Assembly (NCBI RefSeq): GCF_003351745.1
Contig: NZ_CP031222.1
Location: 850,207-914,206, forward strand
Origin: Aquirhabdus parva
GTDB lineage: Bacteria > Pseudomonadota > Gammaproteobacteria > Pseudomonadales > Moraxellaceae
Direction: 5' to 3'
Length of the DNA: 64,000 bases
Shown here piece by piece: positions 18,773 through 21,288 of this stretch. Made by a program: the position numbers and the translations under genes. The notes beneath the pieces were generated by a model, which saw only the letters and a list, made by a program, of their open reading frames with translations, did no database searches and was not told where the DNA came from. The number at the start of each line of letters is the position of its first letter. Position 1 is the stretch's first letter.

Positions 18773-19513
18773 ATGCATATGACGACTCCGCGTAAACTGT
18801 GGCTAGACCTTGGCAATACGCGTTTGAAGTATTGGCTGACTGAGGGTGAAGAGATCATCACCAGTGGTGCTGAGTTGCACTTACAATCGCCTGCTGATTT
18901 ATTGCTGGGCTTAGTCGATCGATTTAGCAATTTTCAGCCATCATTTGTGGGTGTATCTTCAGTGCTGGATAGTCAGGCCAATCAACGAATCAAAAAATCG
19001 CTAAAGCCTCTGAATACCCCAATTGAGTTCGCTCAAGTCCTTGCAACATCACATGGTTTGATTACGGGTTATGATCACATCGAAAAGCTAGGGATTGATC
19101 GCTGGCTACAGGTGCTTGCGTTATCGGGACAGCAGAAGAAATTTTGTATCGTGGGTTGTGGCACGGCATTAACACTCGATTTGCTGGATGATGAAACTCA
19201 CCTCGGTGGATATATTTTGCCCAGTTTTTATTTACAGCGTGAAGCTCTAGCTCAGGGGACACGGCGTGTGCAAGTCCCTGATGGTGCATTTAGTAATCTT
19301 GGCGCAGGGCGTAATACGCAAGATGCCGTGCATCATGGCATTCTCTTGGGACTCGTCGGTGCGATTGAAAAATTAGTGCGTTCTGATCCTACCCGTGAAC
19401 TGGTGTTGACTGGCGGAGATGCGGTACTGATTCGTTATTTTCTGGATATTCCTAATCCGATTACGGTCGAAGATGATTTGTTGTTGAGAGGATTAAGGCG
19501 CTATTTCTCTTAA
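18773..19513 (+). CDS. coaX: Type III pantothenate kinase
   Basis: Phosphorylates pantothenate, the first step of coenzyme A synthesis, using the type III (ASKHA-fold) enzyme. The 246-residue protein has the phosphate motif DLGNTRLK from D12, the GIDRWLQVLAL segment, and the VGCGTALTLDLLD core followed by LGGYILPS. The first residues are ambiguous because ATG occurs at 18773 and again at 18779. It is usually adjacent to birA in this group; here it follows ligA. Confidence 0.92.
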   Translation: MHMTTPRKLWLDLGNTRLKYWLTEGEEIITSGAELHLQSPADLLLGLVDRFSNFQPSFVGVSSVLDSQANQRIKKSLKPLNTPIEFAQVLATSHGLITGYDHIEKLGIDRWLQVLALSGQQKKFCIVGCGTALTLDLLDDETHLGGYILPSFYLQREALAQGTRRVQVPDGAFSNLGAGRNTQDAVHHGILLGLVGAIEKLVRSDPTRELVLTGGDAVLIRYFLDIPNPITVEDDLLLRGLRRYFS

Positions 19514-19531: not shown

Positions 19532-19559
19532 TTGTATTTATTTTTTTTGTGTTTAAAAT
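19532..19559 (+). promoter_or_regulatory. Sigma-70-like promoter of the 19566 transcript
   Basis: TTGTAT (19532-19537) and TAAAAT (19554-19559) with a 16-base T-rich spacer. Each hexamer has one or two changes from consensus. The predicted start is about 19566. Confidence 0.55.
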
Positions 19560-19619
19560 CTGCCCACATTAGTTCAGACATTGTGTCTGGATCCCTCAAA
19601 TTCTACAGGAGCACTTGCA

Positions 19620-19646
19620 ATGGTTAAAGACGGTATTTTTGCTTAA
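19620..19646 (+). CDS. Eight-codon mini-ORF (MVKDGIFA)
   Basis: ATG GTT AAA GAC GGT ATT TTT GCT TAA, preceded by AGGAG with a spacer of eight bases. The spacing and SD are as good as those of real genes nearby. It is not rich in any one amino acid, so a classical attenuation leader for an amino-acid operon is unlikely. Translation would disturb the stem formed by AGGAGC and GCTCCT. Confidence 0.4.
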   Translation: MVKDGIFA

Positions 19647-19713
19647 CGGCAGTCGCTCCTGATTCGGACCGCTGCCCAAAGCATACGGTTCGAATGCACA
19701 GATCTTTAAAGAG

Positions 19714-19737
19714 ACCCTAGCATTCGCTAGGGTTTTT
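19714..19737 (+). terminator. Rho-independent terminator of the 19566 transcript
   Basis: ACCCTAGC, loop ATTC, GCTAGGGT, then TTTT. The 8-bp stem is perfect. It lies upstream of rtcB with no other gene before it except coaX, whose stop is 200 bases away. Confidence 0.8.
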
Positions 19738-19881
19738 CGTTTTTGGATCGCTGATTTTATGCGATTCCAATTTCTAAAAGCCCCACAACCGTATCTACTG
19801 ACGTGATTTGTAGTCTCTATCCATAAGACCACAGATCAAAACGCGCTTATCCAGCGTATATTTTTTAGTGTTAGAAACATC

Positions 19882-21087
19882 ATGGCTATACAACTGACTT
19901 TAAACGCCAATTCTGGTTACGGCGTCCCTGTAAATATTTTTACCCGAGATATTGATGACGCTGCAATCGAGCAACTCAAAAAAGTGGCTCAGTTGCAGTT
20001 TATTTATCCCCATGTCGCCGTGATGCCTGATGTGCATCAAGGCATTGGTGCCACGGTGGGCTGTGTGATCCCCACCAAAAACGCCATTATTCCTGCGGCT
20101 GTCGGTGTGGATATTGGCTGCGGCATGAATGCGATTAGGCTAGGTCTGAAAGCAGCGCAGTTACCAGATGACTTGCGCAAGATTCGCAGTGACATCGAGC
20201 GGACTGTGCCTGTGGGCTTTAATCATCACAGTCAAATTAAAGCCCGTGCGTCAAGCATTGATCCCTTAGCTCGACGCTTAGGCGTGATCACAGATAAACA
20301 CCCGGGCTTATTGCGCATGCTCCGCAATTTTGACCGCACGTGGCAAAAGCAATTGGGTACGTTAGGCGGCGGTAATCACTTTATTGAGCTCTGTATTGAT
20401 GAGCAAGATGACGTATGGGTAATGCTGCACTCTGGCAGTCGAGGATTGGGCAACTGTATTGGCACGTACTTTATTGAACGTGCCAAGAAAGAAGCCCAGA
20501 GCCGATTTGGTCATGTACCCGATAAGGATTTGTCCTATTTCGCCGAAGGGTCTGCAAACTTTGATGATTACGTTGAGGCGGTGCATTGGGCACAGGATTA
20601 TGCGATGGAAAACCGTCGGGAAATGATGCGTCTGATACTGGCTAAGCTGCGAGTACATTTACCGCCATTCCAATTGACCAAAGAGGCGATTAACTGCCAT
20701 CACAACTATGTGCAGCAAGAACGTCACTTTGGGGAAAATGTCTATGTCACGCGCAAAGGGGCGATCAGTGCGCAAGCGGGTGAGTTGGGAATCATCCCCG
20801 GTTCAATGGGTGCGAAGTCCTATATTGTGCGCGGCAAAGGCAACGAGATGTCGTTTTGCTCCTGTTCTCATGGAGCAGGTCGGCGTATGAGCCGGAATAA
20901 GGCCAAAGATTCATTTACTTTGGACGATCTGGCTCAGCAAACAGCAGGCATTGAATGCCGCAAAGACAAAGGCGTTATGGATGAGATTCCAGCCGCTTAT
21001 AAAGACATTGATCAAGTCATGGCAAACCAGACCGATTTGGTTGAGGTGATCCATACCTTGCGTCAAGTCATGTGTATCAAAGGTTAA
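19882..21087 (+). CDS. rtcB: RtcB-family RNA ligase
   Basis: GTP- and Mn-dependent ligase joining 2',3'-cyclic phosphate (or 3'-phosphate) and 5'-OH RNA ends, used in tRNA and rRNA repair. The 401-residue protein shows the metal and guanylate motifs VGVDIGCGMNA, GGGNHFIEL, MLHSGSRGLG, NCHHNYV and SCSHGAGRRMSR, with the guanylated His at about 330, and ends in VMCIKG as the family does. It belongs to the shorter RtcB group. No archease or RtcA gene adjoins it. The only ribosome signal before ATG 19882 is a weak AGAAA. Confidence 0.93.
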   Translation: MAIQLTLNANSGYGVPVNIFTRDIDDAAIEQLKKVAQLQFIYPHVAVMPDVHQGIGATVGCVIPTKNAIIPAAVGVDIGCGMNAIRLGLKAAQLPDDLRKIRSDIERTVPVGFNHHSQIKARASSIDPLARRLGVITDKHPGLLRMLRNFDRTWQKQLGTLGGGNHFIELCIDEQDDVWVMLHSGSRGLGNCIGTYFIERAKKEAQSRFGHVPDKDLSYFAEGSANFDDYVEAVHWAQDYAMENRREMMRLILAKLRVHLPPFQLTKEAINCHHNYVQQERHFGENVYVTRKGAISAQAGELGIIPGSMGAKSYIVRGKGNEMSFCSCSHGAGRRMSRNKAKDSFTLDDLAQQTAGIECRKDKGVMDEIPAAYKDIDQVMANQTDLVEVIHTLRQVMCIKG

Positions 21088-21099
21088 GGAGGCCTAGAT

Positions 21100-21288
21100 A
21101 TGAAACAGAAGAAAGCAAATGTGTTTAAGGAGCGCAATCATTTGGCACTGCATCCGCTGCTGCATAAGGGCGGTGTCAATCACAACGAAAAAGTTGATGT
21201 TGCGCGGCAACGTGAGCGCAGAGCATTGCGCCAATCGTTGAATCATACGGATTGGTTAGGCCAGCACCCTCATGGTGCTGAGTCTTAG
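21100..21288 (+). CDS. Small basic protein downstream of rtcB
   Basis: A 62-residue, strongly basic, soluble protein that starts 12 bases after rtcB with an excellent SD (AAGGAGG) in front of ATG 21100. Its central HLALHPLLHKGGVN segment resembles small conserved proteins I have seen in Pseudomonas and Acinetobacter genomes, but I cannot name a family with certainty. Many Arg, Lys and His residues suggest nucleic-acid or ribosome binding. Co-transcription with rtcB is likely. Confidence 0.75.
   Translation: MKQKKANVFKERNHLALHPLLHKGGVNHNEKVDVARQRERRALRQSLNHTDWLGQHPHGAES

Follow-up and report, generated by a model that had tools for sequence, protein, structure and literature searches.

The stretch analysed here (the window) comprises 64,000 nucleotides of the 3.78 Mb genome of Aquirhabdus parva, of the Moraxellaceae, the family to which Acinetobacter also belongs. 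Between coaX (18773-19513) and the RNA ligase gene rtcB, it carries at 19554-19738 a leader RNA, in which a Shine-Dalgarno sequence (SD) and a mini-ORF of 8 codons are followed by a terminator and then by rtcB (Table 1). Five ordered segments account for the pairings 1:2, 2:3, 3:4 and 4:5, the fifth segment being the 5' side of the terminator. The folding energy of the stretch is -60.9 kcal/mol compared to -41.1 kcal/mol for shuffles (z -5.6; 0/200).

Table 1 Features of the leader region and of the genes behind it, in window positions.
Feature	Position	Strand	Basis or remark
Candidate promoter	19532-19559	+	TTGTAT 19532-19537, 16 nt, TAAAAT 19554-19559; sequence
Expected transcript start	near 19566	+	from the promoter candidate
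5' hairpin	19572-19592	+	predicted fold
Segment 1, CAGGAGCACTTGC, holds the mini-ORF SD	19606-19618	+	pairs with segment 2
SD, AGGAG	19607-19611	+	sequence
Mini-ORF, 8 codons, MVKDGIFA	19620-19646	+	ATG 19620 to TAA 19646
Segment 2, CGGCAGTCGCTCCTG	19647-19661	+	partner is segment 1 or 3
Segment 3, ATTCGGACCGCTGCCC	19662-19677	+	partner is segment 2 or 4; predicted fold, swap test
Segment 4, GCATACGGTTCGAATGC, candidate antiterminator	19681-19697	+	pairs with segment 3
CGAATGC of segment 4	19691-19697	+	complementary to terminator GCATTCG 19720-19726
Intrinsic terminator	19710-19737	+	terminator scan; kept in relatives
Segment 5, terminator 5' arm and loop	GCATTCG at 19720-19726	+	sequence
rtcB, RNA ligase, controlled gene	19882-21087	+	Pfam RtcB PF01139 match; NCBIfam
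Small basic gene, 62 aa, probably co-transcribed	21100-21288	+	follows rtcB

A preliminary description of this DNA had reported promoter-like hexamers with 16-base spacing, an SD with an 8-codon ORF, a strong terminator and complementary segments in the order A-B-A'-B', and all of these are present, the last as AGGAGC (19607), GGCAG (19648), GCTCCT (19655) and CTGCC (19672); segment 4 was absent from it. The 5' hairpin that it called perfect is indeed uninterrupted over 9 pairs, two of which are G-U and thus not strictly Watson-Crick. This hairpin is not evident in the leaders of relatives and is therefore probably not essential. A sigma-70 consensus scan made no promoter call at TTGTAT/TAAAAT because the -35 hexamer is weak in the window; in Acinetobacter the -35 reads TTGAC(A/C), and by eye the -10 TAAAAT lies at the same place in the sister genomes and in Acinetobacter. 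At the curated gathering score no Rfam family was found at the locus, AbsR28 having the terminator alone in common (18.9 vs 50 bits). GGTTCGAATGC had suggested a remnant of a tRNA or tmRNA, but ARAGORN found none. Elsewhere in the window, a cobalamin riboswitch (Rfam RF00174, 43.4 bits) lies at 22-177 on the minus strand.

We compared the regions upstream of rtcB, or of the small gene that follows it, among relatives. The leader was found in 4/4 sampled genomes of the genus, two of them devoid of rtcB; the three others and two genomes of a second Moraxellaceae genus share its layout with changed letters, and in one sister (G002) both the ATG start of the mini-ORF and rtcB are lost. A plain DNA similarity search recovered mostly the terminator and little beyond, because the sequence diverges faster than the pairing. 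The Acinetobacter leaders before rtcB show an SD, a short ORF, segments that end with TCCGAATGC, and a terminator of the form CCTAGCATTCGCTAGG; many other Gamma- and Betaproteobacteria keep this order of features with unrelated sequence. Of the regions upstream of rtcB, a strict layout search (SD, ORF of 7-13 codons, terminator 45-75 nt later) retrieved 65/76 in Acinetobacter and 21/66 elsewhere; it retrieved none of 398 dinucleotide shuffles and none of 28 regions upstream of coaX. A looser, hand-corrected set holds 124 leaders, some Acinetobacter species being represented twice; mini-ORF positions misplaced by automatic annotation (e.g. L084, L165, L168, L203) were corrected by hand before the tests, and locus L210, whose genome has a leader, was left out. 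Several genera contain rtcB loci with no detected leader. Among them, other Moraxellaceae genera (L042, L044; L046, L066, L067; L047, L048) have an rtcB 71-75% identical with no leader detected, which argues that leader control is gained or lost within the family.

The covariance search proposed in the preliminary description was made with a model trained on Acinetobacter leaders alone. In the window genome it gave one match only, at window 19602-19735 (E 1.2e-4), and it also recovered the leaders of the sister genomes and of the second Moraxellaceae genus. The recurrence of the paired segments and of the promoter in relatives, on which that description had made its reading depend, was observed for the segments and, by eye, for the -10. 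The window genome also holds a second rtcB paralog (G000:C1:3454886-3456073, 57% identical) without such a leader, and the model detects the leader of the first rtcB, not one before the paralog. When 149 Acinetobacter genomes were searched, each of the 68 with a full-length rtcB match had one leader (68/68). Seven further genomes had a leader match without full-length rtcB: the gene was split between two frames in one, reduced to short remnants in two, and missing in four, where the leader lies directly before the small gene. This persistence of the leader before a broken or deleted rtcB and the small gene argues that it is part of a leader-rtcB-small gene operon.

The pairings were examined by a swap test on 49 leaders less than 80% alike, in which the duplex energies of a leader's own segments were compared with those of segments exchanged between leaders. 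Own segments paired better for 1:2 (-12.5 vs -7.8, z -12.2), 2:3 (-14.7 vs -8.4, z -14.1) and 4:5 (-11.6 vs -7.4, z -10.5), with 0/5000 permutations as good in each case. The control pairs 1:3, 2:5 and 3:5, which share the base composition and have no predicted pairing, showed no effect, and 1:4 a weak one (z -2.3). The swap result for 3:4 is in-sample, this pairing having been used for defining the segments; within Acinetobacter the 3:4 helix shows paired changes. Within Moraxellaceae, CGAATGC and GCATTCG hardly vary, so that 4:5 (z -1.5) is conserved there rather than covarying, and the GCATTCG loop is also found in other terminators of this family; outside Moraxellaceae 4:5 covaries (z -8.4). 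Segments 1-3 differ wholly in sequence between families and retain their pairing.

Mutually exclusive conserved hairpins therefore lie 3' of the mini-ORF, as in ribosome-mediated transcription attenuators, and the leader has the other parts of such a device, an SD-bearing short ORF upstream of a structural gene and an intrinsic terminator between this ORF and rtcB. The comparative evidence strongly supports the two-state switch suggested earlier, in which A:A' and B:B' would be alternative states, and the pseudoknot offered beside it becomes unneeded.

The mini-ORF has 7-13 codons in 121/124 leaders and exactly nine in 68 of them. In Acinetobacter its three codon positions are equally variable (1.23, 1.27 and 1.19 bits), with no selection seen at the protein level, which makes the peptide an unlikely signal; nor is there any shared codon run, such as the repeated codons of trp/his leaders, in MVKDGIFA and its relatives. 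Segment 2 starts at a median of 3 nt past the mini-ORF stop. With an ORF of about nine codons, the position of the ribosome would thus determine whether segment 2 is covered: from typical footprints, a ribosome at the start would leave it free and one at the stop would cover it.

These observations bear on the idea, already raised in the preliminary description, of an independent trans-acting or dual-function sRNA (a peptide plus a base-pairing RNA) that stands before rtcB by chance. Its own candidate promoter and strong terminator lead one to expect a short stable transcript, and termination in the leader should indeed still yield an sRNA-like RNA of ~170 nt. Nevertheless, the strict linkage, in the genomes searched, to rtcB or to a remnant or former partner of its operon, the preservation of four internal pairings through matching changes and the unconstrained peptide make such an sRNA improbable.

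We then modelled the ribosome in 48 leaders, folded up to the terminator loop with or without a ribosome at the start or the stop. With a ribosome at the start, 2:3 rose from a median of 0 to 7.4 expected pairs and 3:4 fell from 9.3 to 1.7, while with a ribosome at the stop 3:4 returned to 10.3 and 2:3 was gone. For the window leader with a ribosome at the start, the predicted minimum contains 2:3 together with CGAATGC:GCATTCG. Pairing 4:5 is predicted to be partly formed in all states, rising in only 26/48 leaders relative to no ribosome, so that antitermination would be the weakest step of the model, its outcome depending on timing during transcription.

Taken together, the comparative and folding data make it highly likely that the element acts as a ribosome-mediated transcription attenuator of the rtcB operon, with five segments of which the fourth would be the antiterminator; control of rtcB by attenuation, the other option in the preliminary description, is strongly supported by the comparison of leaders. 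By default, the mini-ORF would be translated quickly to its stop, or not at all, and segment 2 would be covered by the ribosome at the stop or held by segment 1. Pairing 3:4 would then form, segment 4 would be occupied, and the terminator would fold, leaving as product only the leader of ~170 nt. Under induction, a ribosome held at the start or the early codons would cover segment 1 and leave segment 2 free, 2:3 would form, and the released segment 4 would pair through CGAATGC with the terminator 5' arm and loop; termination would fail, and rtcB and the small downstream gene would be transcribed. Since induction would come from a ribosome held early on the mini-ORF, the signal would be impaired ribosomes or a shortage of usable tRNA, close to the damage that RtcB repairs.

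A leader attenuating in the opposite direction, or one that answers to a bound ligand (a small molecule, or a protein, for instance RtcB itself) with the mini-ORF merely tuning the response, would also display strong conserved hairpins, and the direction of the response is a prediction of the model. Such a signal is about as improbable as the sRNA: across families there is no conserved unpaired pocket beyond the pairing segments, the first three of which keep nothing but their pairing, the SD within segment 1 and the fixed ORF length point to the ribosome, and the published inducers are ribosome-binding drugs (PMC7652931, PMC9741440). Least probable of all is a terminator serving as a mere insulator, with the leader a separate unit and rtcB read from its own promoter past it, for which the 144 nt from terminator to rtcB in the window and the variation of this distance among species would leave place, but many Acinetobacter have only 35-50 nt before the rtcB start, with little room for a promoter, and insulation has no need of the 1:2, 2:3 and 4:5 complementarity.

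The proposed attenuator can be set beside known systems. In the trp and his attenuators of enterobacteria, a leader ORF, mutually exclusive hairpins and a terminator are combined so that the position of the ribosome sets the outcome, as is proposed here; the rtcB leader differs by its lack of a regulatory codon run and of peptide conservation, its extra segment, its separate terminator and the SD inside segment 1. The erm and cat leader ORFs for the most part affect how the following gene is translated, and frequently need a specific arrest peptide. As in our proposal, a ribosome halted within a short leader ORF rearranges the downstream RNA, but in the rtcB leader the target would be a transcription terminator and no arrest peptide is conserved. 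The rtcBA operon of E. coli is under RtcR/sigma-54 control, with a protein activator and a sigma-54 promoter; there too rtcB is inducible in connection with RNA or translation damage, by a protein in that case and, as proposed here, by a cis-acting leader RNA.

The closest precedent, by analogy, would be PA5471.1/armZ of Pseudomonas aeruginosa, where the RtcB-like armZ (PA5471) is controlled via the leader peptide PA5471.1 and ribosome stalling leads to read-through (PMC12057347, PMC13041342). Both systems place a short leader ORF before the gene of an RtcB-like RNA ligase, the gene controlled here being of the RtcB family by Pfam and NCBIfam, and the terminator read-through caused there by ribosome-targeting drugs or stalling is what we propose here. 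Compared through published descriptions of PA5471.1 rather than its sequence, the two differ in that the terminator there is described as being the 3:4 hairpin, while in the rtcB leader it is a hairpin apart from 3:4, with segment 4 as candidate antiterminator; furthermore, ArmZ is an RtcB-like anti-repressor of mexXY, whereas the genes here are rtcB proper and a small basic gene.

Tigecycline treatment of A. baumannii raised rtcB and its immediate downstream neighbour, perhaps the small gene described here, more than any other gene, at 252-fold; a toxin-antitoxin link or a blockage of tRNA is put forward by the authors (PMC7652931). With minocycline, rtcB was 2.6-fold up within 10 min (PMC9741440). 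A literature search, with subscription journals mostly outside its coverage, returned no paper describing an attenuator for rtcB itself. Ribosome-mediated attenuation is known as a kind; what appears new is that it would act on rtcB proper, that the terminator stands apart and has an antiterminator strand, that the peptide is not conserved and that the leader is so broadly distributed.

More tentatively, and with the odds somewhat against it, the leader could be a peptide-independent gauge of ribosome health across Gamma- and Betaproteobacteria, a five-segment antitermination device in which the setting of rtcB would depend on a ribosome moving off the start of a decoy ORF of nine codons. With the SD as its segment 1, such a leader might also sense whether the anti-SD end is still present on 16S rRNA, a reported repair substrate of RtcB.

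The small basic gene, of 52-62 aa and without a Pfam match (window 21100-21288; L266, L268, L270, L271, L272; L005 and L006 on the reverse strand), lies behind rtcB in many gammaproteobacteria; of the Acinetobacter loci checked, 28/40 have it there, as do many other loci. Where rtcB is deleted or broken it stays directly behind the leader. As it outlives rtcB in this position, its product may have a role of its own in translation stress. A different leader was observed in a Pseudomonadaceae genome (G492; L239, ~1330-1500) before an rtcB of the TIGR03073 (release-factor-linked) type: it has a mini-ORF MTFNNSFAGSAAYS and no T-run, its hairpin CCAATTCC/GGAATTGG would mask the gene's SD, and it looks like translational control.

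The proposed leader switch offers a testable mechanism for an unexplained result, the 252-fold induction of rtcB and its neighbour in A. baumannii under tigecycline (PMC7652931), and may account for rtcB being the top gene induced there by a ribosome-blocking antibiotic. It likewise points to the small conserved gene behind rtcB, still present in several genomes after the loss of rtcB, as likely to encode a translation-stress protein. Across many proteobacteria, it would tie RNA repair directly to ribosome stalling, with no need of a protein activator of the E. coli type.
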